From positions 1-25,530 of IMG/VR virus record IMGVR_UViG_3300036857_000314: a DNA stretch of 25,530 nt. One strand, 5' to 3'. The DNA comes from a virus. The translations under genes were made by a program, and so were the position numbers. The notes beneath the pieces were generated by a model. The model ran no database searches and was not told the origin of the DNA. It was given only the letters and a program-made list of their open reading frames with translations. Below are positions 240-24,648 of this stretch, in pieces (the first letter of the stretch is position 1; each line of letters starts with the position of its first letter).

Positions 240-279
240 TCCGCGGTAGCTCAGCGGTAGAGCAGCCGGCTGTTAACCG
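240..279 (+). repeat. attL: attL: 5' half of tRNA-Asn, left end of the element
   Basis: These 40 bases are identical to 24609-24648 and match tRNA-Asn from its first base through the anticodon loop (CTGTTAA) into the first bases of the 3' anticodon stem. After base 279 the sequence departs from tRNA (TTCGGC in place of GCTGGT). Crossover in a tRNA anticodon arm is usual for tyrosine integrases. The repeat marks the left element boundary and leaves a truncated tRNA 5' half on the chromosomal side. Confidence 0.92.
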
Positions 280-347
280 TTCGGCACTCCAAACAAACCC
301 CAGCAAATTCAAGCACTTCCAAGCCGCCCGATGTGAGCGGCGCCAAT

Positions 348-371
348 CAGGCATTGAAGCAGGCATTAAGC
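348..371 (+). repeat. putative integrase arm-type sites, left (two 12-bp repeats)
   Basis: CAGGCATTGAAG and CAGGCATTAAGC follow each other directly. Nearly the same pair occurs in the same orientation at 24475-24498, at the other end of the element, and is not explained by coding there. Paired short direct repeats inside both ends, about 70 and 110 bp from the core, are what lambda-type integrase arm-binding sites look like. Binding by this integrase is inferred. Confidence 0.65.
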
Positions 372-482
372 CCGAGTTGCGCCCACAATCGTAGATTTCG
401 CGAAGAACAGGCTGGTTTCGCGCAATCGACTTGCACTATATAGCGATCCACCCATCGTCAGAGAACGTCCGAGGTTCACGCC

Positions 483-689
483 GTGGCCTTGTCGCGTGCG
501 CGTTTGTCGCCTGAGCATTTCATCAGGCCCAAGGAGCTAGCAAGGCGCTGGCGCGTCAACCGTTCGACTATCTGGAGATGGGTGAGAGCAGGCGACCTGC
601 CTGCCCCGGTCCGCATCAACAAGCAGGTTGTTGCGTGGCCGATGCAGGTGGTCCGCGCCTTCGAAGAACGCAACTACAAACCCCGATGA
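483..689 (+). CDS. AlpA/excisionase-like HTH protein
   Basis: A 68-residue basic protein that is essentially one winged-helix/MerR-like HTH: residues 14-35 read IRPKELARRWRVN then STIWRWVRAG, followed by a basic wing and the IN(K)QVVAW stretch typical of AlpA and small excisionases. Such proteins bind at attachment sites and favour excision, or activate the integrase in satellites such as P4. I chose the GTG start at 483, which has GAGG about 8 bases upstream; a TATATA box lies at 437-442. It is the first gene inside attL, next to the putative arm sites, which supports the excision role. It could also be a simple transcription regulator. Its stop lies 8 bases before the next start. Confidence 0.72.
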   Translation: MALSRARLSPEHFIRPKELARRWRVNRSTIWRWVRAGDLPAPVRINKQVVAWPMQVVRAFEERNYKPR

Positions 690-697
690 GGAGCCAC

Positions 698-985
698 ATG
701 ACGACAACCACAGCACCATGCACCGATTGCGGACGCGTGCACGTCAACGATGCGACCGCACACCATCGGCAGCTAGTGGAGTACCTGATGGAATACCTGC
801 ACAAGCACGGTGGATCGCCGAGAGCTCAACGCGACGCGCTGGCGGGTGCGCTCGCATTCGTGACCTTGCTCAAGGTGCAGCCGCACGTGCCCACGGCGAA
901 GCGCGAGGTTGCCAAGTTGGTTGGCGGCTACATGGACGAAGTGCTCCGTGGGGCACGGCGGGCAGTCAATCAGGGGCGAGCATGA
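698..985 (+). CDS. hypothetical protein with N-terminal Cys pair
   Basis: A 95-residue protein that I do not recognise. It starts with a Thr-rich stretch and a single CxxC (C8, C11: PCTDCGR), followed by His residues at 15, 22 and 23, which might bind a metal. The rest is predicted helical (residues 24-90) and ends basic. The ATG at 698 has GAGGAG upstream and sits 8 bases behind the excisionase-like gene, so the two are probably one operon. Longer upstream reading would overlap the preceding gene and lacks this ribosome binding site. The gene is real on spacing and ribosome binding site; its function is unknown. Confidence 0.65.
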   Translation: MTTTTAPCTDCGRVHVNDATAHHRQLVEYLMEYLHKHGGSPRAQRDALAGALAFVTLLKVQPHVPTAKREVAKLVGGYMDEVLRGARRAVNQGRA

Positions 986-995
986 TCGCAGCAAC

Positions 996-1027
996 GCCAG
1001 CGCCCCACTGTCCTCCAGGGCGCTGGC
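996..1027. terminator. hairpin between convergent genes, possible terminator
   Basis: GCCAGCGCCC (996-1005) pairs perfectly with GGGCGCTGGC (1018-1027) around a 12-base loop. It lies just after the 698-985 gene and before the end of the convergent 1107-2006 gene. No T tract follows on either strand, so intrinsic termination is uncertain. Confidence 0.45.
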
Positions 1028-1106
1028 GCCCTCTGAAGCCGTCCCTACTATCGTATCACCAAACTGCGCCAAGTTGGTTGGGTGCCCTAACTAATCGACC
1101 TGACCG

Positions 1107-2006
1107 CTAGTCGCCCACGAACACCACTGCAAGAGGCGTGAGTGCTCGCCAAATCGATCTGAACCCATACTCGCCAATCAGCTCTTGCACTCGCCTGCAA
1201 CCTCGCCACGCTACCTCGCCTCGATACGTGTCTAGGTTCAACACTCGACGCCGACCCCACCCCACTCTCTGCAATTGCGGTGACTGGTCTCTCGTCTTGT
1301 CACACGCATTGCGTATCGCTCGCCCTAGCCGCTCGACATCAACCCGATACAGGGCAAGGTACTTGTCGAACCTCACACTCCAGAACGCGTCGTGATCGAA
1401 CTCGACTAGGCTTTGCAGGTCAACGATACCAAGCTTCTCGACCGGACCCCGCCTCTTGGCTCGCCACTCGAAATGCAGGCACCGCAACTCGCCCGTAATG
1501 CGCGAGTGGGTCTCCTGATAGAACGTTGTGCGGTTGCTCGCCCTGCCCGGTCCGTCATAGCGGTTGTGGTTGGTTCGCTCGAATAGGGCGATCTCATATC
1601 CACGCCGCCACCATTTCCGGACTAGCAGCGTGTCCAGGGTTTCGTGAAGGGCATCGATATCCACGCCGCACCAGTCGATTGCTATCTCGACGTAGTTTAT
1701 CATCACGGGTCGCCCGGCCATGATAGCGGCGAGGTATCGAAACGCCTCCACTGTAGGCTGGCGTAATTGCACCCGGTAGACCCATTGGCGCTGGAACCTC
1801 ATGCGCCGGCAAAGGGTGTGCACGCCTCCACCACATAGGGCGGCAAGCTTCGCAACCTCGTTATGGGTTAGGCGACGGGTGAACCAGATCTGAACCTTGT
1901 CGAAATACCGCTCGCCCTTCGGCAGGGTGATCGCGTCGCGTATCGCGTGCCAGCGGCCCGAACTTTGCGCTTGATTATCTGCGAGGGGTTCATGTAAATT
2001 CAGCAT
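1107..2006 (-). CDS. Rep-like protein (possible rolling-circle replication initiator)
   Basis: A 299-residue basic protein. Visible features are an N-terminal basic region (KVQIWFTRRLT), a strand with acidic residues (residues about 101-110, NYVEIAIDWCGVD), then TTFYQETHSR and CLHFEWRAKRRG near residues 160-190, and a C-terminal helix-rich basic part. The order 'vxxxDlAxD ... TlYxxxRxs ... RxExr' resembles replication initiation factors of the Rep_trans/phage-plasmid type; this is a pattern match by eye, not a firm family call. A candidate catalytic Tyr is within FYQE. The ATG at 2006 has only a weak CGGG upstream. The gene is transcribed against the excisionase-like pair. If it is a Rep, the element has two replication modules, this one and the DUF3631 ATPase. 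Confidence 0.45.
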   Translation of the reverse strand: MLNLHEPLADNQAQSSGRWHAIRDAITLPKGERYFDKVQIWFTRRLTHNEVAKLAALCGGGVHTLCRRMRFQRQWVYRVQLRQPTVEAFRYLAAIMAGRPVMINYVEIAIDWCGVDIDALHETLDTLLVRKWWRRGYEIALFERTNHNRYDGPGRASNRTTFYQETHSRITGELRCLHFEWRAKRRGPVEKLGIVDLQSLVEFDHDAFWSVRFDKYLALYRVDVERLGRAIRNACDKTRDQSPQLQRVGWGRRRVLNLDTYRGEVAWRGCRRVQELIGEYGFRSIWRALTPLAVVFVGD

Positions 2007-2041
2007 TGCAACACCCGACCAAGGTTTGCGCTCATTACATC

Positions 2042-2072
2042 GCCCGTGTCAGGTCTCCAGCCCGACACGGGC
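2042..2072. repeat. 9-bp perfect inverted repeat upstream of the Rep-like gene
   Basis: GCCCGTGTC (2042-2050) and GACACGGGC (2064-2072) flank a 13-base loop, followed on the plus strand by ATTTCATT. It lies between two minus-strand genes. It may end transcription of the 2134-2553 gene, be a 5' leader hairpin of the Rep-like gene, or be an origin hairpin. Confidence 0.5.
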
Positions 2073-2133
2073 ATTTCATTGCAGGGTCACTTTACGCCGG
2101 CATTAACTCCAGCGCAACTGTCCACAAATGTAG

Positions 2134-2553
2134 TCAGTAATGTGCGTAAGGAGACCACCCCTCCCTGACATTCGCCTTCGCTCGCTTAAGATGGCGGATC
2201 AGCTTCGCCTTATTGCCGACCGGAACCGGAAGCCGCACTCCCACATATGGCTGGCTCGCCTTGGGGATTCGGTTGGCGAGCACCCGACTGCCGACGATCA
2301 TGCCTCCAGCTCCGGCGACAACAGGCGCCGCTGCCAGATACTTCGCGACATTCTTCGGCTTGCACTTGATCCATTTGGCGAACTTGTCGGCAGGCGTGTA
2401 GTCCCATCCAACTCTGCCCATTGCGATCAGGTGCAGCGCGGCGGCGACCTTGCGCGTCGCCTTGGGTCCGCTCGACGCCTTGTCGATCAGGATATCCAGC
2501 TCATAATGTTTGAGCGGTGCCATAGTGGGATGGGAGGCTTTATATCGAGGCAT
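2134..2553 (-). CDS. hypothetical protein
   Basis: A 139-residue basic protein (starts MPRYKASHPT) that I do not recognise. The middle is Ala/Gly-rich and hydrophobic (VAAALHLIAMGRVGW and AAAPVVAGAGGMIVGSRVL), but is interrupted by Lys-rich stretches (WIKCKPKNVAKYL), so it is not an obvious membrane protein. The C-terminus is Lys/Arg-rich. I chose the ATG at 2553 because AAAGGA lies 7 bases before it; an in-frame start 84 bases upstream has no such signal. It may be cotranscribed with the Rep-like gene downstream. The promoter should be in the 2554-2893 gap shared with the divergent early operon. Confidence 0.6.
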   Translation of the reverse strand: MPRYKASHPTMAPLKHYELDILIDKASSGPKATRKVAAALHLIAMGRVGWDYTPADKFAKWIKCKPKNVAKYLAAAPVVAGAGGMIVGSRVLANRIPKASQPYVGVRLPVPVGNKAKLIRHLKRAKANVREGWSPYAHY

Positions 2554-2893
2554 AGGCACATCCTTTCTGTTGACAGTTACTCGCCGGGGGTGCGTGCCTT
2601 TCGTCTTGATACTGACGGTTCCCACACTAGTCGTCAATGGTCGGGATATGGAGTGCTCTTAGATTTATGCATTGGCGTTCGCTTGAAACCCGCTGAAATT
2701 GGGCGTTTATCATTCGTTAACGACTGACAATTGCGACCATTATCACTATTGAGTTTCGACGTGAAAGCTGATACCCTGCGCCCCAACAGCATTCGGGGTA
2801 TTACCCCAGGGTTATCAACCCTGCCCCGATGCTGCGCGGGCGTGGCGAAATGCCGTCCGCACCAAGGTCCAAACCAGACTGAGGAGCAATGCC
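2554..2893. promoter_or_regulatory. divergent control region with two palindromes
   Basis: This 340-bp AT-richer gap separates the minus-strand 2134-2553 gene from the plus-strand early operon and holds no credible gene. It contains two adjacent palindromes, GGGGTATTACCCC (2795-2807) and AGGGTTATCAACCCT (2808-2822), just before the early operon. A possible plus-strand promoter is CTGACA (2724-2729) and TATTGA (2747-2752) with a 17-base spacer, a weak match. Palindromes between divergent phage operons usually bind a repressor; no repressor is identified beyond the HTH protein at 4678-5274. Confidence 0.55.
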
Positions 2894-3175
2894 ATGGCAA
2901 GGCGAAAGTTCGATCTCAAGGGCCTCAACACCGACACGTGGGCAGCCGCCGCGTTGGCTGAGGAAATCATAGCCGAAAGCACCATCAGCGGTCTCATGAA
3001 GGCCAAACCCAAGGAAACCTGCGAGGCCCTGTTGTGCATCGTAGTGCAGGAGATCTTCCGGCGAGCCCGAAGCGATGACCACGTGTCCGAGTTGTGCGCA
3101 CAGGCGAGCTTGGCCATGACGGTCCTCACCGTCGCCCAGCGGGGGGAGGACTGCGCAAATGTTCAAGCAAGCTGA
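2894..3175 (+). CDS. hypothetical protein, first gene of the early operon
   Basis: A 93-residue, mostly helical protein without a domain I recognise. It starts MARRKFDLKG and has a mid-region CEALLCIVVQEIFRRAR. The ATG at 2894 has GAGGAG 7 bases upstream. Its end overlaps the start of the DUF3631 ATPase gene by 17 bases and contains that gene's ribosome binding site (GGGGGAGG), so the two are translationally linked. Placement suggests a small replication or regulatory partner of the ATPase; this is inference from position only. Confidence 0.65.
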   Translation: MARRKFDLKGLNTDTWAAAALAEEIIAESTISGLMKAKPKETCEALLCIVVQEIFRRARSDDHVSELCAQASLAMTVLTVAQRGEDCANVQAS

Positions 3176-4607
3176 CCCTCAAGATGAGGACCATGCCGAC
3201 GGCGCCAAGCCGAACGGCAGCCGCCCTCCCAACGGGAAGGCTGACACTGCTGACACTGCTGACGGTAGCAAGGCGAAGCTGACCGGTGCCCAGCGCAAGC
3301 GGGTGCTCGACAAGATCCGGAAGTTGCTCGCGCTAGGGTTCGGTCCGGGCGCCAGCGACGCCGAAGGCGAAGGGGCTTACAAGAAAGCCCGCAAGCTCAT
3401 GGAGGAGAGCGGCATACGGATCGAGGAGGTCTATGGCGTTACCCCGACAGACGGCGAGGCCGGCAGCGAACCCGAGCCGCGCCCCGAGCATTGGCCCGAC
3501 CCTGTGGAGGGCGGCGAACTTGTCAGCGAGATCACGAAGCTCCTAAAGCGGCACGTGATCGCCCAACGCGAGCACTACCTCGCTTGCGCCCTATGGGTGA
3601 TCCACGCCCATTGTCACGACGCCGCAATGCACTCGCCTATCCTCATGATCACCGCGCCTACCATGGGCTGCGGCAAGTCCACCTTGCTCGAATGCCTGGA
3701 ATATTTGGTGCCCCGTCCGCTGCGCACTAGCCACGTCACGTCGGCAGCGATCTTCCATCGAATTGAGCGGTACAAGCCAACGGTGCTCATGGACGAGGCC
3801 GACACCTTCGCCCCCGACAACAAGGACCTACTGTGCTTGTTCAACGACGGCTACAGGCGCGGCGGCAAATTCCACCGCAAGGATGGGGACTACAGCATAT
3901 GGGCACCGAAGGCGGTTGCGTTGAACGAGCACAACAAGCTCGCCGCCACCCTTCAGAGTCGGTCCATAATCATCAAGCTTCAGCGCAAGGCGCCAGACGA
4001 GGTCATCCATAGGGTCAAACCTCCCCAGGACAAGCATGACGACAAGGACCCGTTCAACGCCATCCGCATGAAGTGCGTCCGATGGGCCAAGGACAATGCC
4101 GAGCGTTTGGTAGGAGCGGAACCCGACCTACCCTCAGACAACGACCGCACCAACGACAACTGGCGACCTCTTATCGCCATCGCTGATCTGTGCAAGCGTC
4201 CGCAACGCGCGCGCGAGGCTGCTGTAGCCCTAACCGGCAAGAAGCTGCAGGAGCCCCCGATCCATGAGCAGCTATTGCGTGGCATGCAGCGCCTGTTTGA
4301 ACGCGACGGCGGACGGCTCCCCAGCACGCATATCGTGCAGGAGCTGCTAGCCATCGAGGACGGGCCTTGGAACCGCGTCAACGGCGCACCGCTCAACGTC
4401 ACGCTGCTTAGCCATCTCCTCAAGCCGTTCGACATTAAGCCGAAGGCGGCGAGGATCAAAGGCAAGCAAGCGCAGTGCTACCGCGTGGAGCAATTCGTTG
4501 ACGCCTTCAGGCGGTATTGCCCGCCCCCAAACAGTCAACACCGTCAACACCCTCAGCAGAAGCCTAAGCCCAAATCGACCGCGCTAAAGCGCCTGCAGAA
4601 ATCGTGA
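3159..4607 (+). CDS. DUF2786 + DUF3631 P-loop ATPase, probable replication helicase/primase-type protein
   Basis: A 482-residue protein. After a low-complexity start (residues 28-35 repeat ADT) comes a DUF2786-like segment (about 40-95: KIRKLLALG ... EGAYKKARKLMEESGI). The ATPase core has Walker A APTMGCGKST (166-175), Walker B TVLMDEAD (208-215) and a probable sensor/Arg finger in LQSRSIII (around 268). The following FNAIRMKCVRWA and NDNWRPLIAIADL stretches are typical of DUF3631 proteins, which occur with primase-helicases of phages, plasmids and satellites. It probably remodels the element's replication origin. The ATG at 3159 has GGAGG 8 bases upstream. Nine-base repeats lie inside its 5' part (3242-3268), its 3' part (4533-4559) and just behind it (4608-4625). 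No primase (TOPRIM or AEP) domain is visible. Confidence 0.82.
   Translation: MFKQADPQDEDHADGAKPNGSRPPNGKADTADTADGSKAKLTGAQRKRVLDKIRKLLALGFGPGASDAEGEGAYKKARKLMEESGIRIEEVYGVTPTDGEAGSEPEPRPEHWPDPVEGGELVSEITKLLKRHVIAQREHYLACALWVIHAHCHDAAMHSPILMITAPTMGCGKSTLLECLEYLVPRPLRTSHVTSAAIFHRIERYKPTVLMDEADTFAPDNKDLLCLFNDGYRRGGKFHRKDGDYSIWAPKAVALNEHNKLAATLQSRSIIIKLQRKAPDEVIHRVKPPQDKHDDKDPFNAIRMKCVRWAKDNAERLVGAEPDLPSDNDRTNDNWRPLIAIADLCKRPQRAREAAVALTGKKLQEPPIHEQLLRGMQRLFERDGGRLPSTHIVQELLAIEDGPWNRVNGAPLNVTLLSHLLKPFDIKPKAARIKGKQAQCYRVEQFVDAFRRYCPPPNSQHRQHPQQKPKPKSTALKRLQKS
3242..3268 (+). repeat. 9-bp iteron-like repeats, cluster 1
   Basis: TGACACTGC occurs twice in tandem, followed by a diverged copy TGACGGTAG. 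The repeats are in phase with the reading frame and encode ADT-ADT-ADG. The same 9-bp pattern recurs in clusters at 4533-4559, 4608-4625 and 21972-21998. Confidence 0.55.
4533..4559 (-). repeat. 9-bp iteron-like repeats, cluster 2 (inverted)
   Basis: On the minus strand this reads CTGCTGAGG, GTGTTGACG, GTGTTGACT: two good and one diverged copy of the TTGAC(A)GTG-type unit. It lies in the 3' coding end of the ATPase gene, inverted relative to the cluster 50 bases downstream. Confidence 0.5.
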
Positions 4608-4625
4608 TGACAGTGTTGACAGTGG
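4608..4625 (+). repeat. 9-bp iteron-like repeats, cluster 3
   Basis: TGACAGTGT and TGACAGTGG lie head to tail directly at the end of the ATPase gene. Facing the inverted cluster at 4533-4559, they make a symmetrical arrangement, as found in some replication origins. Confidence 0.5.
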
Positions 4626-4652
4626 TGAGGGTATTTCGGCGGCCCTCACCAC
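4622..4652. repeat. perfect 10-bp hairpin between ATPase and regulator genes
   Basis: GTGGTGAGGG (4622-4631) pairs with CCCTCACCAC (4643-4652) around an 11-base loop. There is no T tract after it, so it is more likely an attenuating or RNA-stability hairpin, or part of an origin with the neighbouring repeats, than a terminator. It precedes the ribosome binding site of the 4678 gene. Confidence 0.5.
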
Positions 4653-4677
4653 GACGCCAACCGAAAGGGTATGCCAG

Positions 4678-5274
4678 ATGATCGAACGCAAGCGACTGAA
4701 ACGACGGCACGGCCCCGATAGCCTGGATATCACTGGACGTAACTTCGGCCTCTGGAAAGTGCTGGGCTTTGCAGGTCACCACACGTGGCCTAGCGGACAG
4801 CAGCACCAGAAATGGCGTTGCAAGTGCCAGTGCGGAATAACCAAGGATGTTCTGAAGCCCCACTTAGTAAGCGGCAAGAGCCGTGGCTGCCGGCCTTGCC
4901 GCAAAGCTATGGGACGGAAGCCCGACCTGACCGGCAGGAACTTCGGCGGATGGCAGGTAGTAGCTCGCGACCCTCGCTATCCCAACAAATACACGGTTCG
5001 CCACACGTGCGGCCATGAGCGCCATTCCAATCATGCCCTACTGACCGCTCCAACCACGCCCGAGTGCGCTCACTGTAAATTCAGAGCAGCCGTCACCGGC
5101 ATCGGTGGCAAGATGAGAAAGCGCCGAATGGATCAAGGGCTCACCTTGGACAAGGTAGCCGTGCATCTGGGCGTCACTCAGCAGCGCGTCGCCCAGATGG
5201 AGAATAGCCCCGACCGCTGGTGGTCTCCCAAACGTCGCAAGCGGATCATTACCGCGTTGGAGGAATTGCGGTAG
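4678..5274 (+). CDS. DNA-binding regulator: two zinc-ribbon-like repeats plus C-terminal XRE-type HTH
   Basis: A 198-residue basic protein. Residues 16-80 hold DITGRNFGLWKVL, then WRCKCQCG and a C-terminal CRPC; residues 84-135 repeat the plan with DLTGRNFGGWQVV, HTCGH and CAHC. This 'LTGxxFGxWxVL ... CxCG ... CxxC' unit is common in phage DNA-binding and HNH-linked proteins, and here is duplicated without a visible nuclease motif. Residues about 143-198 form an XRE-type HTH (MRKRRMDQGLTLDKVAVHLG, then VTQQRVAQMEN). The ATG at 4678 has GAAAGGG 8 bases upstream; another ATG at 4671 is out of frame. It is the last gene of the early operon, before a strong terminator. It is the only HTH_XRE protein in the element and so the best candidate for repressor or Cro-like control, though the plus-strand position is unusual for a lysogeny repressor. 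Confidence 0.7.
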   Translation: MIERKRLKRRHGPDSLDITGRNFGLWKVLGFAGHHTWPSGQQHQKWRCKCQCGITKDVLKPHLVSGKSRGCRPCRKAMGRKPDLTGRNFGGWQVVARDPRYPNKYTVRHTCGHERHSNHALLTAPTTPECAHCKFRAAVTGIGGKMRKRRMDQGLTLDKVAVHLGVTQQRVAQMENSPDRWWSPKRRKRIITALEELR

Positions 5275-5416
5275 TCGAATGAGGCCCGGCCCGAATTGTA
5301 ATGCGCTTACAGAATGATTGACGCGCCCCGCTCGCCGTGCCACTATTGAAACTCGGCACGTCCTTGCCAGGGGTGGCTTTGTCGTGCTGGGCATGTATTC
5401 TCCTCAGCCTTCTCGG

Positions 5417-5460
5417 TGGCCCGCTCGCAGAATATTGAACTGCGGCGGGCCATTATATTG
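5417..5460 (+). terminator. strong intrinsic terminator after the early operon
   Basis: TGGCCCGC (5417-5424) pairs with GCGGGCCA (5445-5452), extended inward, after a 1-base bulge, by CGCAG (5426-5430) with CTGCG (5440-5444). The loop is AATATTGAA, and TTATATT follows. It lies between the early operon and the NusG-like gene, so it separates early and late transcription. Confidence 0.75.
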
Positions 5461-5476
5461 GGCATTTCAGACCGAG

Positions 5477-5507
5477 TTGACAGTATACAGACTGATGTGC
5501 CTATATT
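5477..5507 (+). promoter_or_regulatory. promoter of the NusG-like gene
   Basis: A perfect -35 box TTGACA (5477-5482) and a -10 box TATATT (5502-5507) are 19 bases apart; CTATAT one base earlier gives 18. The start codon at 5515 lies only 7 bases after the -10 box, so transcription would begin at or next to the ATG, giving a leaderless mRNA. No ribosome binding site is present. Confidence 0.6.
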
Positions 5508-5514
5508 GGCGCCC

Positions 5515-6024
5515 ATGGCCAATTGGTTCTGCGTCCAAACCCGACCGAATGCCGAGTTTCGCGCCGTTGAAGATTTGCGGCGCGAAGAGCTTATGGTCTG
5601 GTTGCCGCACACCTATACACGCGTCACGCCAAAGCGCTGGGGTTACAGGCCCCATTATCCCCGCTACTGCTTCGTCTACACGACTGACACCCGCCTATGG
5701 CTCGCGAAGCATCACAAGTGCTCAGTCGTGACGCTGGCCACCAATGAGCACGGCGACCGGTTGCCGGCGATCATCCCCAACGATGTGATGCAGGTTCTCC
5801 AGGCCGGCTTCGACGCGAGCGGGCTTGCCCTCACCAGGACCGAGGCGAAGCGCGCCCGCTTCACGGCTATGGAACGGGTGCGGTATCGCGAGGGTCACCC
5901 CTACCGCGACCTACTGGTCAGGGTCATCGAGGACGACGGCAGCGACAGGGTGCGCGTCCTGCTGAGCATCTTCGGTCACCTGCAGAAGGCAACAGTTTCG
6001 GCTGCCGACCTAGAGGCAGCCTGA
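5515..6024 (+). CDS. NusG/RfaH-like transcription antiterminator
   Basis: A 169-residue NusG paralogue. Residues 1-95 form the NGN domain: MANWFCVQTRPNAEFRA, then VWLPHTYTRV, then the hallmark RPHYPRYCFVY. Residues about 118-165 form a KOW-like domain (MERVRYREGHPY ... VLLSIFGHLQKATVSAADLE). NusG and RfaH/LoaP proteins ride on RNA polymerase and can make it pass terminators. The ATG at 5515 matches the NGN start exactly; an extension to 5416 would run through the terminator hairpin. It lies between a strong terminator and the nuclease and morphogenesis genes, so it probably promotes long read-through of the 13-kb late region. Its mRNA appears leaderless. Confidence 0.85.
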   Translation: MANWFCVQTRPNAEFRAVEDLRREELMVWLPHTYTRVTPKRWGYRPHYPRYCFVYTTDTRLWLAKHHKCSVVTLATNEHGDRLPAIIPNDVMQVLQAGFDASGLALTRTEAKRARFTAMERVRYREGHPYRDLLVRVIEDDGSDRVRVLLSIFGHLQKATVSAADLEAA

Positions 6025-6664: not shown

Positions 6665-6892
6665 ATGTGGGCACTGCGCTACGCCACACGCACACCGATA
6701 GGGTGGCTCTACTTCGCGCCGATGGCAGGTCCGCCCGACCCCGAGAAGTTCGGCCGTCCCACGGACTGGACCAATGACGCCACGGTCGCCTTGCGTTTCC
6801 CAAGCCAGGGTCACGCCGACATGCTGCGCATGTGGATGGCAGCGGCCGACGTTGACCATTTCAGCAACGTGGAATCCATCGAGGTCAAGTGA
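6665..6892 (+). CDS. hypothetical protein
   Basis: A 75-residue protein (MWALRYATRTPIGWLYF...) not recognised. It is aromatic-rich with no Cys pair and no membrane segment. The ATG at 6665 has GAGAGA upstream. Its stop overlaps the GTG start of the HNH gene (GTGA at 6889-6892), so the two are translationally coupled. A longer frame beginning upstream would overlap the homing endonuclease gene and is unlikely. It may be a small packaging accessory because of its place just before the HNH and terminase genes; this is position-based inference. Confidence 0.65.
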   Translation: MWALRYATRTPIGWLYFAPMAGPPDPEKFGRPTDWTNDATVALRFPSQGHADMLRMWMAAADVDHFSNVESIEVK

Positions 6893-7239
6893 CCAAGCGA
6901 GCTAGGGACCGTCGCCACGACGCCAAGCGGCGTTTCGATAGGCCGTGGAGGAAGTGGTATGACACCCCACGTTGGCGGAAGATCAGACAAGCGCAGTTAA
7001 CGCTGCACCCGTTCTGCCAGCCCTGTCAGGCCAAGGGTAAGCTCACCAGAGCAGAGGTAGTGCACCACACCCAACCCCATCGTGGTGACCCTGTGCTCTT
7101 CTACAATGGGCCGTTCGAGTCAGCGTGCAAGCCCTGTCACGACGGTGAGCTACAGCAGCAAGAGCGACGTGGCTACTCGACTGCGATAGGTGCGGATGGT
7201 TGGCCTACAGATGCACGTCACCCCGCGAACCGGCAGTAA
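6889..7239 (+). CDS. HNH endonuclease of the packaging module
   Basis: A 116-residue HNH nuclease of the type found beside terminase genes in HK97-like phages (HK97 gp74 family). Visible are WYDTPRWRKIR (residues 23-33), the first zinc pair CQPC (43-46), catalytic HH (59-60), an Asn in YNGP (73) and the second zinc knuckle CKPCH (80-84). In that family the HNH protein assists terminase in cos cleavage. The GTG start at 6889 overlaps the preceding stop by four bases. The order HNH, TerS, TerL supports a cos-type packaging role, interrupted here by the reverse-strand gene 7249-7575. Confidence 0.88.
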   Translation: MTKRARDRRHDAKRRFDRPWRKWYDTPRWRKIRQAQLTLHPFCQPCQAKGKLTRAEVVHHTQPHRGDPVLFYNGPFESACKPCHDGELQQQERRGYSTAIGADGWPTDARHPANRQ

Positions 7240-17070: not shown

Positions 17071-17420
17071 AGAACTGGCTGGAGTTCGGGCTCGGCTACG
17101 ATCTGTTCTGGCGACTGACGCCGCGCCTATTGCTGCTTTCGCTTGAAGCTGCCCAGCAGGCACAAATCAATCAGCACAATGAGCGCGTTTACAGCGCCTA
17201 TCTGACTGAGGCGCTGAGCCGTACCAAGCGATTGCCCAAGGTAGAAACGTTGTTCGCGAGGCCGCAGCATCGGCAGGGTCAGCGGCAAACTCTCGATCAG
17301 CAACGCGGCATGTTGCGCGCCATCGCAGCGGCGTTCGGCACTACGAAGCATCTAGCCCCGCCCCGCAGCAAGGCGGTTCGTATGACGCCAGACGAGTTCG
17401 CCCAGACGTTCAAGAGGTAA
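17025..17420 (+). CDS. tail assembly chaperone C-terminal part, made by -1 frameshift (lambda gpT analogue)
   Basis: This frame encodes 131 residues after the slip: SGPVEPTGWDWQALLKNWLEF, GLGYDLFWRLTPRLLLLSLEA, then a basic helical region and a C-terminal MTPDEFAQTFKR. It has no ATG and no ribosome binding site before residue-level conservation begins, so it must be expressed as a fusion to the preceding gene (119 + 131 residues). In lambda the fused gpGT recruits tube protein to the tape measure. FWRLTPR is typical of the T-like half in alphaproteobacterial phages. The stop lies 5 bases before the tape measure start. Confidence 0.82.
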   Translation, partial: SGPVEPTGWDWQALLKNWLEFGLGYDLFWRLTPRLLLLSLEAAQQAQINQHNERVYSAYLTEALSRTKRLPKVETLFARPQHRQGQRQTLDQQRGMLRAIAAAFGTTKHLAPPRSKAVRMTPDEFAQTFKR

Positions 17421-19084: not shown

Positions 19085-19097
19085 GAGGGTAACGCCC

Positions 19098-19334
19098 ATG
19101 CAAGGCACCATCGCCGTAGCCGCATCTGATGTTGAACCAGGCGCCGTCGGGATCACGGTCACCGCAGAAGACGGCCGCACCTTCGTCATCCCATTGCGCG
19201 GCTACGACCTAGTCCATTTCGCAGAACAGTTGGGCGCTGCCTGCACGACCGCGTTCATGGATATCGCGGCCGCAACTCTCAATGACCAGTTGCCTCCATG
19301 CGACCGATTACCCTCAGCGCACCCGAAGCCCTGA
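19098..19334 (+). CDS. hypothetical protein after tape measure
   Basis: A 78-residue protein (MQGTIAVAASDVEPGAVGIT...) with two beta-like stretches (VGITVTAEDGRTFVIPLRG) and a helix (LVHFAEQLGAACTTAFMDIAA). AGGAGGG lies 7 bases before the ATG, a strong ribosome binding site. I do not recognise it. Where lambda-like phages have the tail tip gene cluster, this element has only this gene and the next, so one of them might be a tail-end adaptor. This is inference from position. Confidence 0.68.
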   Translation: MQGTIAVAASDVEPGAVGITVTAEDGRTFVIPLRGYDLVHFAEQLGAACTTAFMDIAAATLNDQLPPCDRLPSAHPKP

Positions 19335-19630
19335 CGCTGCTGGCCTTGCGCCTGTCGGGCGTGTCGAGCGTCATTGCGCTCCGCCACATCGGTAAGCCCC
19401 TTGTCTACTCAGTGCCCGCTGGCTACTGGTGGCGCGACCTCAGATGGCGCACAACCAACGTCACGCTTCCCTACGTCAGCGTGCTGAAGTCAGAGTCAAT
19501 CGAGCCTGTCGGGTTCAACCCGAAGCCACCGATAAAGCGCAAGCGGCTGAGCCGCCGCAAGCAGTTCACGGTGGGAAGCAAGTGGCAATTCACAGTCGGG
19601 GAGAGGACCAGTAAGCAGCGTCGCACGTAG
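19298..19630 (+). CDS. hypothetical protein, last gene of the late operon
   Basis: A 110-residue basic protein starting MRPITLSAPEALTLLALRLSG. A hydrophobic/helical N-terminal half and an aromatic stretch (YWWRDLRWRTT) are followed by a Lys/Arg-rich tail in which FTVG occurs twice (QFTVGSKWQFTVGER). It is not recognised. The ATG overlaps the previous gene by 37 bases and has little ribosome binding site, so coupling is likely. It ends 50 bases before a strong terminator, closing the morphogenesis operon. Confidence 0.55.
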   Translation: MRPITLSAPEALTLLALRLSGVSSVIALRHIGKPLVYSVPAGYWWRDLRWRTTNVTLPYVSVLKSESIEPVGFNPKPPIKRKRLSRRKQFTVGSKWQFTVGERTSKQRRT

Positions 19631-19680
19631 CGACGCCCGACCCCTAGCCCACCATCATCCCCCCTCGCCACCCTGACATG

Positions 19681-19714
19681 AGAAAGGCCCCGGTTCATCG
19701 CCGGGGCCTTTTGC
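19681..19714 (+). terminator. strong intrinsic terminator closing the late operon
   Basis: AAAGGCCCCGG (19683-19693) pairs with CCGGGGCCTTT (19701-19711) around a 7-base loop, followed by TTGC. The A run before the stem makes it work on both strands, so it also ends the convergent 19731-20171 gene. Confidence 0.9.
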
Positions 19715-19730
19715 ATTGGGCAGATATTCG

Positions 19731-20171
19731 CTAACCGCTGCCTCGCATAAGGTGCAGCACCCAGAGAAATAGCTTCGCCCCCTGCTTCAGCACGATGCCG
19801 ACCCAGCCGAATGCAGCTTCGACCGCGAGCAGACACACCGCGAGCACCAGCAGGATAATGAGCGCCTGGACCCAAGCGGGAATCTCCCAATCGGTTTGCG
19901 CCTTGCGCAAGGTCCCATCGGTCCCGTAGGGCATGACGAGCTCCATGTGCTTCCGCCGCAGGAGCGCGCTGCTACCTTCGTTCGGATCAACTTCGCTCGA
20001 CGATGTTTCTGGAATACCTGTCGGCTTGCTCGGAACCGTGGCGAGAGGCTGACGCGTCGCATCTTCCTCCCTCAATATGGGCGGCAACGCCAGCTGGCGC
20101 GGTCGTTCTTGGACCGTTCCGCTAGGCAAGACTTCATCATTCGGGCTGGCGCCCGTTCGCTGGTGATTCAT
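19731..20171 (-). CDS. hypothetical membrane-anchored protein
   Basis: A 146-residue protein. The first 95 residues are polar and probably disordered (MNHQRTGASPNDEVLPSG..., rich in Pro, Ser, Glu). Then come two hydrophobic stretches close together: WVQALIILLVLAVCLLAVEA and WVGIVLKQGAKLFLWVLHLM. The start at 20171 has GGAG 7 bases upstream; an in-frame start at 20225 lacks one. It could be an element-expressed cell-envelope protein (exclusion, lysis control) but nothing identifies it. It reads toward the late terminator and away from the non-coding region to its right. Confidence 0.6.
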   Translation of the reverse strand: MNHQRTGASPNDEVLPSGTVQERPRQLALPPILREEDATRQPLATVPSKPTGIPETSSSEVDPNEGSSALLRRKHMELVMPYGTDGTLRKAQTDWEIPAWVQALIILLVLAVCLLAVEAAFGWVGIVLKQGAKLFLWVLHLMRGSG

Positions 20172-21015
20172 CACGGTCTCCGTTTCGCTCAATTGGCGCG
20201 CTGCCGAACCTTCACCATCTGCCAAGACGCCGATCCGGTACGGCAGCGCGTTCCGACGTACCCGTTGGGGGCCGCAGGAAACTCAATTGTTGTGCTGTTG
20301 CTGGGTAGGTAGTGTTCCTATTGTTGACCTCCCGTTCAGACTATCCTGGTGCTATGATGGTGACGCCAAGACGCCGGATCCGATTCATCGGTCTCGGCTC
20401 ACGTCGCCTCCCCTTCCTTCCGGTGGGGGAGGCGATTGTGTAATCGGCTCCTTTGCGATACTCTGTATTTCAGCCCGGTCCTTTCACGCATCGCCCCTGC
20501 AACGCTCCCTGGTTTGCGCGCAACCTCCACGTTGTTAACGCGCTCGGAGCCTATTGGTTCCATCACAAGAGGTTTGCTTGCGATCTCAGGCTTTGGCGTG
20601 GATGCTGTGACTCAACCCCGAATTGTGAACAGACTTGGTGAGCTGAGGCGAGCACCGCCTCTCGTCTCCTACGCACGCACGGCCTCGCGCTGTGCGCCCT
20701 CATTGAGACTCAAGGGGAAGACGTCATGATTGGGCGGCTCGGACACGGCCTCGCGGCGCAACCGACCTCGGCAGCCCGCTTCATGAACGATGTTTAATAC
20801 CCGATTCGCCAGCCGAGCCGATCAGCCCAGCCCTAGCCGACCTAGGCCGCTGGCATGCCCCTAGGGCGCTCGCCAGTGGCCCGCTATGGGCCTGTCAGGG
20901 CTCGCGGCGCGGTCGGGGGTAGGGTGACCTACCCCAGGGCTCGCGCCTGCCAGGGCCTCAATAGCGCGGGTGCGGCAGCCTGCCGCAGAGTTGCGGTACG
21001 AAAGGTGAACGGCCT
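20172..21015. other. long non-coding, hairpin-rich region
   Basis: About 840 bp without a convincing gene in an otherwise dense element. Perfect or near-perfect hairpins: 20404-20435 (10 bp), 20645-20661 (GAGGCG/CGCCTC), 20846-20880 (9 pairs, one G-U), 20916-20935 (GGGGTAGG, GTGA tetraloop, CCTACCCC) inside GGCGCG/CGCGCC (20906-20947), and 20971-20987 (TGCGGCA/TGCCGCA). Direct repeats: CACGGCCTCGCG at 20678 and 20744, CAGGGCTCGCG at 20896 and 20935. An extended -10-like TGCTATGAT lies at 20350-20358. It could encode a structured RNA or an origin. Confidence 0.5.
20365..20445 (+). ncRNA. candidate small RNA with terminator-like hairpin
   Basis: An extended -10 sequence (TGCTATGAT, 20350-20358) would start a transcript near 20365. 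About 70 bases later TCGCCTCCCC (20404-20413) pairs with GGGGAGGCGA (20426-20435), followed by TTGTGTAAT. A small CCGA/TCGG hairpin lies between. There is no good -35 box and the T tract is weak. Longer transcription through to about 20990 is equally possible. Confidence 0.25.
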
Positions 21016-21600
21016 TTAGGCTTCGATCCACACGCGGCTGCACATGAACCAGGACCAGCGACGGCGCCACGCTTCCTCGCTCATGCCGAGATTGGCGAAC
21101 CGGCCGTGAAGCTTCCTAGCCGCCTCGCGGTAGGCTTGGTGTGCCTCTTCCTCGTGGACGTAGCGACCTAGCAAGAGCTGCCTGTCACCCTTAATGCGAG
21201 CCCGATAGAGACCCCGTGCGCCGTCCCAGCCTACGCCCTTGAGCTCTACCGGGCTGATGCCGCGCCGCTTGCCTTGGTTGCACGCGTTCTGAGAACGCGT
21301 TGCCAGCCGCAAGTTGTCCCAGCGGTCATCAAGCGTGTCGCCGTTCTTGTGATCGACTTCGTAGCCGGGTGGTGGCCACTCCCCCGTGACGTAGAACCAC
21401 GCAAGTCGAGCAGCTTTGTACTGGCGACCGAGGAGCTTGATATGCCGATAGCCGCTCCCGTAGGTGGCTCCTGCTGTGCTGCCGGCTCTGATGTTGGGTC
21501 TAGGCGATATGAGCCATCGCCACGTGCCCGTGCGCGGGTTGTAGATCAGCACTCTGACTAGCTCAGCATGACTCAATGGTGGTATGGTGCGGTCACGCAT
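21016..21600 (-). CDS. second HNH-AP2 homing endonuclease
   Basis: A 194-residue protein with HNH_3 core (AARLAWFYVTGEWPPPGY, then EVDHKNGDTLDDRWDNLRLA, residues 63-100; D83-H84, N96, N105) and an AP2 domain at about 119-168 (LKGVGWDGARGLYRARIKG ... LLLGRYV ... AARKLHGRFA). It is a diverged paralogue of the 6129-6635 gene. The residue equivalent to H59 there is A64 here, so one position often conserved in HNH_3 is lost, though the main DH is kept. The ATG at 21600 has GGAGAG upstream; an N-terminal extension has none. It borders the hairpin-rich non-coding region. Confidence 0.87.
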   Translation of the reverse strand: MRDRTIPPLSHAELVRVLIYNPRTGTWRWLISPRPNIRAGSTAGATYGSGYRHIKLLGRQYKAARLAWFYVTGEWPPPGYEVDHKNGDTLDDRWDNLRLATRSQNACNQGKRRGISPVELKGVGWDGARGLYRARIKGDRQLLLGRYVHEEEAHQAYREAARKLHGRFANLGMSEEAWRRRWSWFMCSRVWIEA

Positions 21601-21632
21601 GACGGGCTCTCCGATAGCCTGTTGATGCCAGG

Positions 21633-21661
21633 GCCTTGCCGGTGTGGCGCACCGGCAAGGC
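21633..21661. repeat. 11-bp perfect hairpin upstream of the second HNH gene
   Basis: GCCTTGCCGGT (21633-21643) pairs with ACCGGCAAGGC (21651-21661) around a 7-base loop. It lies in the leader of the minus-strand HNH gene and after the 21697-21882 gene. No T tract follows on the minus strand, so it may attenuate or stabilise the transcript. Confidence 0.55.
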
Positions 21662-21696
21662 TCGCACCCATCATACTGCAATCGTCAGTGTTGAGA

Positions 21697-21882
21697 CTAG
21701 CAGTCGCCGTTGCGGTCCTTCAGGTGGCGAAGCACACCCTTGGGCGGGTCGGGTCGCTCGGCAAGCTGGGCAAGGTGGCGTAGGCGCTGGGCAAGCCGCT
21801 CGCGATCTACAGGCGATAGGGCCTCGATATCGGCCTTAGTCAGCGTCTCCAGCAGCGCCATGATTTGCGTGATCAATGCCAT
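21697..21882 (-). CDS. small hypothetical protein, helical
   Basis: A 61-residue protein (MALITQIMALLETLTKADIE...) made of helices: LTKADIEALSPVDRERLAQRLRHLAQLAE is the central piece and resembles short 'ALSPxDRERLAxxLRH' proteins often seen in alphaproteobacterial phages. A GGATGG sequence lies just before the ATG. Function unknown. It lies in the minus-strand block with the integrase, likely expressed during integration. Small size makes the call moderate. Confidence 0.55.
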   Translation of the reverse strand: MALITQIMALLETLTKADIEALSPVDRERLAQRLRHLAQLAERPDPPKGVLRHLKDRNGDC

Positions 21883-21943
21883 CCGTCCATCCCGTGACTG
21901 ATCGTCTGTTGACGGAATACCACAGTAGGGCTCTCAAAGGCAA

Positions 21944-21967
21944 AGGGCCGGCTTGGTGACCGGCCCT
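21944..21967 (-). terminator. intrinsic terminator of the 21998-22186 gene
   Basis: AGGGCCGG (21944-21951) pairs with CCGGCCCT (21960-21967) around 8 bases. On the minus strand the stem is followed by TTGCCTTTGAG, a modest T-rich tail. It lies 30 bases after the stop of the minus-strand gene. Confidence 0.65.
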
Positions 21968-21971
21968 CGCT

Positions 21972-21998
21972 ACTGTCGGCACTGTCGGCAGTGTCGGT
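21972..21998 (-). repeat. 9-bp iteron-like repeats, cluster 4
   Basis: On the plus strand ACTGTCGGC occurs twice, then AGTGTCGGT. On the minus strand the unit is GCCGACAGT, one base from the TTGACAGTG unit of the cluster at 4608-4625. The repeats lie between a terminator and the stop codon of the neighbouring gene. Confidence 0.5.
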
Positions 21999-22186
21999 TA
22001 CGAGATGCGAATGTAACCGTGCTTCGTGTCCCAGATCAGGTCACCGCGCCACACCCCTTTGGCAAGCGCGGCCTTCACGGTCATGCCGGTCTTGTAGAGC
22101 TTGAAGCGCTTCGCGCTGGCGCCGCTCTTGGGGTTCGACTTGGCCAGCACCTTGATCTTCTGAGTGTCCTGGAACTTCGGCTTCAT
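21998..22186 (-). CDS. small conserved phage-type hypothetical protein
   Basis: A 62-residue basic protein: IKVLAKSNPKSGASAKRFKLYKTGMTVKAALAKGVWRGDLIWDTKHGYIRIS. The pattern 'NPKxxGSAxxRFxxYxxGMTVxxALxxGVxxxDLxWDxxxGxI' is one I have seen in alphaproteobacterial phages without known function; it may bind DNA. The ATG at 22186 has GGAG 8 bases upstream. A perfect 11-bp inverted repeat lies just upstream (22198-22236) and a terminator behind, so it is a small independent transcription unit. Confidence 0.72.
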   Translation of the reverse strand: MKPKFQDTQKIKVLAKSNPKSGASAKRFKLYKTGMTVKAALAKGVWRGDLIWDTKHGYIRIS

Positions 22187-22197
22187 TGTCGTGTCTC

Positions 22198-22236
22198 CAT
22201 GTCAGTGTGTCGCCTGATGTTCCCTACACTGACATG
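22198..22236. promoter_or_regulatory. operator-like 11-bp inverted repeat
   Basis: CATGTCAGTGT (22198-22208) and ACACTGACATG (22226-22236) are exact inverted repeats separated by 17 bases, in the leader of the minus-strand 21998-22186 gene. The right copy overlaps the likely promoter, the left one lies just before the ribosome binding site. The arms contain CACTGACA, related to the 9-bp repeats elsewhere in the element. Confidence 0.55.
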
Positions 22237-22294
22237 ATGTGCTTAACGAAGCTTTAAGAATTGCAGTCAACGGATTAGTATAGGCATCGGCTGC

Positions 22295-22699
22295 CTATGC
22301 CCCGTCGGCCTTCGCGGTCTTCTTGATATCGCGCACTAGGGTGTCGATGTTGGCCGGTGTGCCCCAAGCTCGCCAGACAGCCTGCGCAGACCACAAACCA
22401 GTTATCAGGGTGCAAATGACGAACACAGCGTGCCAAGTCGCGGCAGGGAAGACGAACTGACGAAAGTCGGCAGTAGCCAGGACGGTGACGAATGTCGCAA
22501 AGAGACTTACTGGCGCAATCCAGCCTGCTTGTTCGGTCACCGCGCTGATGTGCTTTAGAATGCACAACTTCAGCTTGTCTTCCGTAATGATGATCATCTC
22601 CTGCTCAACGTTCCAGTTCCAGTTAGTCCTGGCGTTGCGCACGAGCTGTTCGTTGAGCTGTGTGTCAAACGTGGCGTTCTGCGTTTGCTCCTCACTCAT
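22295..22699 (-). CDS. hypothetical membrane protein, two TM segments
   Basis: A 134-residue protein. After a polar start (MSEEQTQNATFDTQLNEQL) there is a central helix, then two hydrophobic stretches: about residues 65-88 (WIAPVSLFATFVTVLATADF) and 95-117 (AVFVICTLITGLWSAQAVW), followed by a soluble tail. GAGGAGGGG lies 7 bases before the ATG at 22699, inside the end of the zinc-ribbon gene, which stops four bases earlier, so the two are one operon. Function unknown; it may be an exclusion or anti-phage protein. A longer start would run inside the zinc-ribbon gene. Confidence 0.68.
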   Translation of the reverse strand: MSEEQTQNATFDTQLNEQLVRNARTNWNWNVEQEMIIITEDKLKLCILKHISAVTEQAGWIAPVSLFATFVTVLATADFRQFVFPAATWHAVFVICTLITGLWSAQAVWRAWGTPANIDTLVRDIKKTAKADGA

Positions 22700-22703
22700 G
22701 CGC

Positions 22704-22994
22704 CTACCCCTCCTCTTTCTTCGGGGTCGGGGCTGGCGGGTTTGGGGCTTGCGGCAAGAGCCCCAGGACACCGAGCGCGTGCTGAGAGAGGAACCCGCAT
22801 CGATTGCACGCGGTAATAACGGTTGGCACCGTCGGCCCACCAATGATCAGGGCACCTGAAAGCTCACGCTGCAACGACGGGTTAAAGTAGCCATCAACGA
22901 TGCTGAACGATGTGTTGCCACACCGAGGGCACGGCCTGTTTACGCCGCGATCCACCAGCGCCTTGGCGATCTGCTTTCGCTGTTCCTCGTCCAT
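22704..22994 (-). CDS. small zinc-ribbon protein
   Basis: A 96-residue protein with CPRCG (near residue 22) and a second pair CNRCG (near 65), spaced as a zinc ribbon with beta-like residues between (FSIVDGYFNPSLQRELSGALIIGG). A helix (DEEQRKQIAKALVDRG) precedes, and a Pro-rich tail (PQAPNPPAPTPKKEEG) follows. I prefer the ATG at 22994 (AAAGG 7 bases upstream) to a GTG at 23000. It is the first gene of an operon with the two-TM protein. Zinc ribbons of this kind may bind nucleic acid or be partner-binding; no function is shown. Confidence 0.72.
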   Translation of the reverse strand: MDEEQRKQIAKALVDRGVNRPCPRCGNTSFSIVDGYFNPSLQRELSGALIIGGPTVPTVITACNRCGFLSQHALGVLGLLPQAPNPPAPTPKKEEG

Positions 22995-23085
22995 TGGCAC
23001 GCCTTTAGGTGGATAATTGCCGTATGGGTTCGCCCGCTGCGCGCGTCAACCTACAACCGATAACTTAGCTGTGGAAACAATAAGC

Positions 23086-23102
23086 CCCGGCTAACAGCCG
23101 GG
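23086..23102 (-). terminator. intrinsic terminator after the integrase gene
   Basis: CCCGGCT (23086-23092) pairs with AGCCGGG (23096-23102) around AAC. On the minus strand the stem is followed by GCTTATTGTTT. It starts within 6 bases of the integrase stop. Confidence 0.8.
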
Positions 23103-23107
23103 CGAGG

Positions 23108-24460
23108 TCACCGCAGCACCTTCACCTTGTCGTCGCGAGCCCGTGCAACTACAGCCGCAAGATAAGCGGCCCACTTGTCGAGCGCCGCGCGAATCTCAGG
23201 CAGCCGCTTGCTGTGGTCGTAGACGCGCTGGATGCCGCGCTTACCGTGCCCGATCACCATCTCGGCCACCACATCGTCAACGCCGAGCCCGGCCAAGGCC
23301 GTCCTGAGAGTATGGCGTAGGTCGTGCAGCACAAACGGCGGCAGCGTGTCGTAGGTCTCGCCACGCTTCGCGGCGCGGTCCGCCAGCGTGCCCGCTATGT
23401 GCTCGTCCAGCCATACCTTCAGCTTCGATAGCGATCCAAGCTGGTGCTCGCCGGTATGTGAGAACACGTGGTCGTCAAGGTCGCGCACCGGCACCGATGC
23501 CAACAGGTCCAGCATGGCATCTGTGATCGGCACGTCGCGGGGCTTGCCCGACTTGTTGCCGGTCCGCTCGCCCGGCACGGTCCACACGCGCTTGGCGATA
23601 GCCGGTCGCCGCGCCTTGTCCTTGTCGCGTAGCCACTGCCGCAACTCAGGGTGGAACTCGCGCCAGCGTGCTCCCAGTGCCTCACCAAGCCGAGCGCCGG
23701 ACAGCATCAGCCATTGCACGGCGACCCCTTCGGGATACTTGCGAGCGACCGCAGCAAGCCACAGGGCGACTAGTTCGTCCTCGGAGAGCATGCGGTCTCT
23801 AGGGTCGAACCTGGCGCCATTGAGGACAAGCTTCTTGTCCAGGCTGGCCAGCGGCGACGCTTCGATCAGTTCATCGTGCACGGCCTGCTTGAAGATCAGC
23901 ACCGCATGCCCCCACGCCTCGCGTGCACCGTGCGGCGTGCGCTTGGCAAGATCACCGATCACGGCCTTGACGTCTCGAGGCGTGATCGCTGACACGGGCT
24001 TGTCGCCCCACGGCGCTATCAAGTCGCGGCGTATGGCCAGCGCGTCCTTGTGAGCCCGGCGATTGGTGCGCGCCGCGATGTACGCCTCAGCTAGAGCCCT
24101 GAAGGTGTTCTTGGCCTCGCGTTCGGCCTTGGCCTTCGCCTCCTGTTCGGCTCGCTCAGCGTCAAGCCGGGCCTTCTCTACAGCTGCCGCAGCCTCAGCC
24201 GCTACGGCTGCCGGGTCTTTGCCCCGCTCGACAAGCTGCCGCCACTCGCTCGCCTTCGTGCGGGCTTCAGCCAACCCCATGCCAGGATACTTGCCCAGCG
24301 TGCGCTTCGATTGGACCTTGCACCCTGGAAACCGAAGCTGTAACACCCATAGCCGGTCACGCCGACCGGCCTTGAAGATGAGACCCTTGACGATGGCATC
24401 GAACAGCATATCGCCGGGCTTTGCCGCGTCGAGCGCCTTCACCGTCAGTTCGGTTGGCAT
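23108..24460 (-). CDS. int: P4-type tyrosine integrase
   Basis: A 450-residue tyrosine recombinase. The N-terminal DUF4102-type arm-binding domain (ELTVKALDAAKPGDMLFDA) is followed by an Ala/Glu/Lys-rich coiled coil (about residues 80-120), a core-binding domain and a catalytic domain with R257 (LSGARLGE), H379-x-x-R382 (HDLRHT), H405 (IGHGKRG) and the nucleophile Y414 (RVYDHS). It catalyses recombination between attP and the tRNA-Asn gene. I prefer the ATG at 24460, where the family domain starts; two earlier in-frame ATGs (24481, 24493) lie inside the putative arm repeats at 24475-24498 and have no ribosome binding site. The gene is intact and reads away from attR, so the control region lies between it and the tRNA. 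Confidence 0.94.
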   Translation of the reverse strand: MPTELTVKALDAAKPGDMLFDAIVKGLIFKAGRRDRLWVLQLRFPGCKVQSKRTLGKYPGMGLAEARTKASEWRQLVERGKDPAAVAAEAAAAVEKARLDAERAEQEAKAKAEREAKNTFRALAEAYIAARTNRRAHKDALAIRRDLIAPWGDKPVSAITPRDVKAVIGDLAKRTPHGAREAWGHAVLIFKQAVHDELIEASPLASLDKKLVLNGARFDPRDRMLSEDELVALWLAAVARKYPEGVAVQWLMLSGARLGEALGARWREFHPELRQWLRDKDKARRPAIAKRVWTVPGERTGNKSGKPRDVPITDAMLDLLASVPVRDLDDHVFSHTGEHQLGSLSKLKVWLDEHIAGTLADRAAKRGETYDTLPPFVLHDLRHTLRTALAGLGVDDVVAEMVIGHGKRGIQRVYDHSKRLPEIRAALDKWAAYLAAVVARARDDKVKVLR

Positions 24461-24474
24461 GGTCGAACCCCAAG

Positions 24475-24498
24475 TAGGCATTGAAACAGGCATTAGAG
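24475..24498 (+). repeat. putative integrase arm-type sites, right (two 12-bp repeats)
   Basis: TAGGCATTGAAA and CAGGCATTAGAG repeat the left pair at 348-371 in the same orientation with 19 of the first 21 bases equal. The site lies in the leader of the integrase gene, so bound integrase could repress its own synthesis. This would also explain why the more upstream start codons of the integrase gene lie here by chance. Confidence 0.65.
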
Positions 24499-24534
24499 GG
24501 CCTGCGCTTGCCTACCTACGGTTGACACCCGTTG

Positions 24535-24587
24535 CAACAAGTTTGTTGGATGAAAGCCTTGGAATTCCAATGACTAGCGTCGCTAAT
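24535..24587. promoter_or_regulatory. palindromes and possible promoter between integrase and tRNA-Asn
   Basis: CAACAAGTTTGTTG (24535-24548) and TTGGAATTCCAA (24559-24570) are perfect palindromes. On the plus strand TTGGAA (24559-24564) and GCTAAT (24582-24587) are 17 bases apart, which could supply the tRNA-Asn promoter from the element side. Both boxes match the consensus only in four of six bases. Confidence 0.4.
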
Positions 24588-24608
24588 TGGCTCGGTGACG
24601 CTAAGTGG

Positions 24609-24648
24609 TCCGCGGTAGCTCAGCGGTAGAGCAGCCGGCTGTTAACCG
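24609..24648 (+). repeat. attR: attR: 40-bp core, right end of the element
   Basis: This is the second exact copy of the left core at 240-279. Here it continues into a complete tRNA, so bases from about 24649 on are the original chromosomal 3' half of the gene. Confidence 0.92.

Follow-up and report, generated by a model that had tools for sequence, protein, structure and literature searches.

An integrative element joining an island-type early module to siphophage head and tail-shaft genes: a possible helper-dependent satellite

The PLE11 satellites of V. cholerae were shown in 2026 to contribute their own tape measure, chaperone and hub to chimeric tails (PMC12987554), and putative tmp genes occur in some capsid-forming phage-inducible chromosomal islands (cf-PICIs; PMC12987554, Extended Data Fig. 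10); the idea of a satellite with its own tape measure thus has a precedent. Here, the IMG/VR virus record IMGVR_UViG_3300036857_000314 was analysed over its full length (25,530 bases, the whole IMG/VR entry, with no host genome behind the record; hereafter the window). It contains a 24.4-kb element bounded by exact attachment repeats in which, by gene-family assignment, a P4-type integrase/AlpA/DUF3631 module is joined to siphophage packaging, head, connector and tail-shaft genes, without tip or lysis genes. We favour the view that this element is a helper-dependent, satellite-like integrative chimera over the view that it is a cleanly deleted prophage, and place the former at just below an even chance.

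The late operon and its right edge

The sequence-only reading of the window had described complete packaging and head genes followed by a tail tube, and PHROGs matches identified this set from the terminase small subunit (TerS) through the major tail protein, all on the + strand. A packaging-type HNH endonuclease (6889-7239; phrog_2323) lies upstream of TerS (7754-8134; phrog_83) and is followed by the terminase large subunit TerL (8137-9972; phrog_9, 3e-129), the portal protein (9969-11273; phrog_12, 4.5e-97), the head maturation protease (11251-12006; phrog_80), an HK97-type major capsid protein (12020-13327; phrog_10, 2.7e-67), the head-tail adaptor Ad1 (14067-14699; phrog_442), the head closure protein Hc1 (14699-15061; phrog_25), the tail terminator (15316-15720; phrog_347), an HK97 gp10-type tail completion or neck protein (15717-16175; phrog_5) and the major tail (tube) protein (16204-16638; phrog_158, 2e-18). 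Relatives of this tail lineage were gathered by scans with TerL, the tape measure and the tail terminator. The predicted frameshift between the tail assembly chaperones, encoded in frame 0 (16669-17070; phrog_2115) and in the -1 frame (17016-17420), was also recovered, with a slippery CCCTTTA heptamer barely within the stretch that both frames share, at 17019, and a heptamer at the same place in relatives (CCCTTTA in L004, L192 and L174; CCCTTTG in L088). A sialyltransferase-like gene (13430-14092, +; phrog_4603), odd for a head operon, stands between the capsid gene and Ad1, and this place is kept in L004, L174, L186, L192 and L088.

The tape measure protein (17426-19084, +; 552 aa; PHROGs, alignments) is complete, as had been claimed, since it aligns with that of L192 to residue 550 of 552 and with that of L088 to the last residues. 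By the rule of thumb of 0.15 nm per residue, its length would correspond to a tail of ~80 nm. Conservation is highest at the tip-facing end of the protein: its last 157 residues were matched in 19 of 21 relatives and its first 245 residues in 7 of 21. The tape measure of phage lambda has its C-terminus in the tail tip (PMC10721106). A tip-facing end that is kept without a tip in cis would fit the use of a helper tip; the same conservation would also be expected if the tip had been lost recently.

Beyond the tape measure the operon contains just two small orphan genes, R1 (19098-19334, +) and R2 (19298-19630, +), before a strong hairpin terminator that ends it (~19681-19712, +; -26.2 kcal/mol, z -3.75), in line with the first description of this edge. 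R1 starts 13 nt past the native tape measure stop, behind an AGGAGG motif that makes a strong ribosome-binding site. The codon usage of R1 and R2 is suggestive at most, as 8 of 107 non-genic open reading frames (ORFs) score equally high, and the single-sequence fold of R2 was unusable (predicted confidence, pLDDT, 50). Searches with PHROGs and Pfam detected no homologue of a distal tail, hub or fibre protein, or of an endolysin or holin, so that the absences noted earlier stood and neither the distal tail, hub and receptor-binding genes nor the endolysin/holin cassette of a complete siphophage was recovered. When the L088 proteins of the distal tail, hub, fibre and CHAP types were used as tblastn queries, they likewise revealed no relic of such genes. 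The longest unassigned protein past the tape measure is 182 aa; replacement of the distal tail by a different module was considered and dropped, because nothing long enough is left to encode it.

The attachment site and the early module

The exact attachment repeats of the sequence-only reading were confirmed as a 40-bp direct repeat, unstranded, at 240-279 (attL, by repeat search) and 24609-24648 (attR, by repeat and tRNA calls), which delimits the element. The repeat equals the first 40 nt of tRNA-Asn(GTT), and the attR core lies within an intact copy of this tRNA gene at 24609-24683. The repeat thus covers the 5′ part of the gene. The 3′ part is the one repeated in most tRNA integrations. 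Because the 5′ part is used here, the restored gene stands 24.4 kb away from its original upstream region. Adjacent to attR, a P4-type tyrosine integrase is encoded (23108-24493, -; PHROGs, Pfam) with Arm-DNA-bind_3 and Phage_integrase domains; near attL, an AlpA or excisionase-type regulator (483-689, +; phrog_66, 2e-11) passes the Pfam AlpA cut-off (PF05930, 21.7 bits against 21). The third gene of the module, the DUF3631 ATPase (3159-4607, +; PF12307, 1.2e-37; PF10979), carries an N-terminal DUF2786 domain in addition. All three assignments agree with those made from the letters.

The distribution of the DUF3631 ATPase points to islands. Searched by tblastn, it was matched in 2 of 50,697 phage records, both times in surroundings that do not look like a phage: L294 (PP003913.1) is a 16-kb integrase/cox island with no annotated structural genes, and in the stretch read of L295 (PV029746.1) the match has host-type transporter and Rhs genes around it. 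Both are named Pseudomonas phages in GenBank and have rather the appearance of chromosomal islands. Among plasmids, 3 of 72,556 records gave matches. From alphaproteobacterial genomes sampled in three sets (289, 250 and 398), 22 DUF3631 loci were fetched with their flanks. These islands (L237-L241, L313-L329) resemble the element in having an integrase near the ATPase, detectable within ~7 kb at 15 of the 22 loci, and in L325 integrase, AlpA and DUF3631 genes are consecutive. They differ from it in that none of the 22 carries a homologue of its head-tail genes within the ~10 kb read to each side as far as the contig reaches, a comparison that would miss island capsid genes unrelated to the element's own. 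The ATPase is therefore an island-type replication helicase, essentially absent from true phages, and the element is a chimera of island integration and replication genes with phage morphogenesis genes.

From this anatomy we infer helper dependence, tip borrowing and induction. Infection by a related phage, or its induction, would lead to excision of the element at tRNA-Asn; the element would replicate by its own ATPase, express the late operon under a NusG-like antiterminator (5515-6024, +; phrog_6386, 3e-13; PF02357) and package its DNA into its own heads. Its tube and tape measure would be polymerised on helper-made tip complexes of distal tail protein (Dit), hub and fibre, and the particles would exit through helper lysis. 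The likely helper would be a siphophage with a tip of the L088/L192 type, given that the element and these phages have the tip-facing end of the tape measure in common. It is possible, somewhat short of an even chance, that such a satellite supplies its head and complete tail shaft itself and depends on the helper just for tip and lysis, so that the helper would choose the host range; within this proposal, capture by an island integrase/AlpA/DUF3631 module of a siphophage morphogenetic operon up to the tape measure is advanced as tentatively.

Other features of the early region and right arm were less informative. A zinc-ribbon/HNH-like protein (4678-5274, +; PHROGs, Pfam) has a weak C-terminal XRE-type helix-turn-helix and is a possible regulator; the earlier statement that a CI repressor is missing held insofar as no obvious CI was seen in the window, and was softened by this protein. 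An orphan 299-aa protein (1107-2006, -) had no family match and an uninformative single-sequence fold (pLDDT 36); a stretch YVEIAIDW ... HFEWRAK resembles replication initiators, judged by eye alone, and a role as a replication protein is possible and unproven. The leftward arm (19731-23000, -; PHROGs, Pfam) holds small unknown genes together with HNH and Zn-finger genes. PADLOC and NCBIfam gave no useful match.

Tipped relatives and rival explanations

The relatives of the tail module define what the element lacks. Distal-tail genes were found in all 15 of the relatives that are readable past the tape measure: a Dit-type gene directly follows the tape measure in 12 (L192, L255, L256, L088/L263, L264, L265, L266, L268, L271, L272, L274 and L275), with a mostly common hub family next to Dit, and other distal-tail genes take this position in L253, L258 and L257. 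Since all readable relatives are tipped, the tail module comes from ordinary siphophages; a tip belongs to its ancestral state, from which the element deviates. The relatives are distant, with ~30-62% protein identity in tail genes, and none has the integrase/AlpA/DUF3631 module; they therefore indicate the origin of the tail module and not a mere decay of the element. The sequence-only reading had held that close relatives with distal-tail and lysis genes at this spot would reveal simple decay, and such tipped relatives do exist at exactly that spot, but they are distant and have another early module.

Several complete or longer members illustrate this lineage (~32-46 kb, endolysin included). 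G438 (L253) is a full-length prophage of 37.8 kb with an integrase-like gene, a CI-like repressor, a J-like tip protein and an amidase endolysin, and its end carries tRNA-Pro; an AlpA match in G438 proved a false lead, its clearest regulator being the CI-like one. G003 (L088; 31.7 kb) encodes Dit, hub, fibre and CHAP proteins besides a ParA-like one. The siphophage and prophage lineage of L004, L192, G003 and G438 shares with the element the head and tail-shaft set, the slippery heptamer and the sialyltransferase-like gene, and a NusG-like gene is common to the element, L004 and G003. Unlike the element, the lineage has distal-tail genes in all readable members, lysis-type genes in G438 and G003, and no DUF3631 module. 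L004, a close head-tail relative, encodes in positions 1-5952 an integrase, a Toprim-DUF5906 (D5-type) primase, an HTH_17 regulator and a NusG-like gene, so that a satellite-looking early module stands on the same head operon; its contig stops within the tape measure. As L004 combines an integrase, HTH_17, a D5-type primase and NusG, an AlpA gene or a missing CI was discarded as unspecific proof of a satellite.

The strongest rival, doubtful but to be taken seriously, is a defective prophage: one clean deletion or a recombination event would have removed the distal-tail and lysis genes from an ordinary temperate siphophage of this lineage, the remainder would be too young for decay, and the product would make at most tail-less heads and either stay put or excise without infective particles. 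Decayed prophages are common. Distal-tail genes lie directly after the tape measure in every relative with a readable right flank, and with relatives of the sizes given above ~8 kb or more would be missing. However, both breakpoints would have to hit gene borders, as the tape measure has its native stop and R1 its own ribosome-binding site; no Dit, hub, fibre or CHAP relic was found by the searches described above, no other lesion occurs in 24 kb, and the DUF3631 module is not of phage type. Of the marks of a degraded prophage, relatives with the missing genes at the same place were thus found, though distant, whereas broken genes, relics and a lost attachment site were not: the attachment repeats are exact and the ORFs are open.

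An assembly artefact, in which the contig falsely connects the end of the tape measure gene with the right arm and the real element has distal-tail and lysis genes, is improbable. The junction is present in a single record. A second record, L003, repeats the left half of the element across 11,028 bp with 100% identity and extends 1.5 kb into the left flank, where a HisD-like gene has matches of just 58-65%, in Alphaproteobacteria and one betaproteobacterium. A third, L002, equals the element for 5.77 kb and then shows 7 differences within its last 230 bp (L002:5766-5996; window 16917-17147), which hints at a second tail allele and may reflect one in a related population; a scan for the continuation of this allele returned L002 alone. 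One of the 7 differences is a stop shortly past the slip site, which shortens the frame-0 chaperone. Single-protein IMG/VR scans, for which the tape measure and the DUF3631 ATPase served as queries, revealed no further copy of the element beyond L003. As neither L002 nor L003 extends to the right edge, this edge rests on one assembly. Against the artefact, a ribosome-binding site, two ORFs and a terminator give the junction the form of a natural operon end, and the left half was reproduced in L003 without any difference. The metagenome from which L002 comes (3300043331) also contains at least three related phage contigs, L252, L262 and L267, with tail terminators 46-57% identical, as possible helpers.

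That the element is a complete phage or particle machine with unrecognised tip and lysis genes, for example R1, R2 or small right-arm genes, is very improbable. In its favour, R1, R2 and the gene at 19731-20225 are all orphans, and by inspection the right arm includes proteins that look membrane-associated; but a tip as known in this lineage requires a Dit of ~270 aa plus a hub of 600-880 aa, and the longest candidate falls well short of both.

The helper-dependent, satellite-like reading is supported by the two exact attachment sites, the intactness of all genes and the clean closure of the operon. The following observations weigh against it. The claim concerns the right half, which is present in one record from one assembly; the 24.4 kb are large for a satellite when compared with the cf-PICI mean of 14 kb (PMC10803314); the tape measure is about as long as those of full phages in the lineage; all readable relatives are tipped; and no helper, excised circle or particle is known for the element. 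Moreover, the search proposed earlier for the same gene order and right edge elsewhere returned no second such element among the sequences searched, a result that also speaks for the defective prophage. The satellite proposal of the sequence-only reading thus stands as far as anatomy, gene absence and the island-type DUF3631 module carry it, and is weakened by a tail module from tipped phages and the lack of a sister element.

Comparison with known satellites

If the element resulted from deletion, it would be an ordinary defective prophage. If the satellite reading is true, the host range of its particles would be fixed entirely by the helper tip, and the match of the tape measure C-terminus to a foreign tip would be directly testable. 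Among described satellites, cf-PICIs share with the element an integrase and AlpA-type regulator at a specific attachment site, the HNH-TerS-TerL order, and portal, protease, capsid and connector genes, so that both have their own packaging and capsid genes with connectors, and both lack lysis genes. They differ in that cf-PICIs encode heads, have no tail genes and take helper tails, whereas the element has a tube, tail terminator, chaperones and tape measure; its replication gene is a DUF2786-DUF3631 ATPase in place of the known PICI pri-rep, and its host is probably alphaproteobacterial, a group not listed for cf-PICIs (PMC10803314). Because the absence of tail genes does not apply and the replication gene differs, membership of the cf-PICIs is not claimed.

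The Mulch and Flayer satellites of Streptomyces (PMC10690885) likewise have full packaging and head genes and are helper-dependent; unlike the element, they have no recognisable replication primase, and no long tail-shaft genes were reported for them (PMC10690885). At the gene level, PLE11 resembles the element in having its own tape measure and tail chaperone and a partial tail pathway, from which chimeric tails would follow. By gene content, PLE borrows the helper capsid and tube and supplies a hub, whereas the element owns its head and tube and lacks a hub. A satellite that also owns the tube and leaves just the tip and lysis to the helper would add a variant to these known types, and satellite borrowing would then extend from whole particles (P4, PICI) through tails (cf-PICI) and mixed tails (PLE) to the tip alone.

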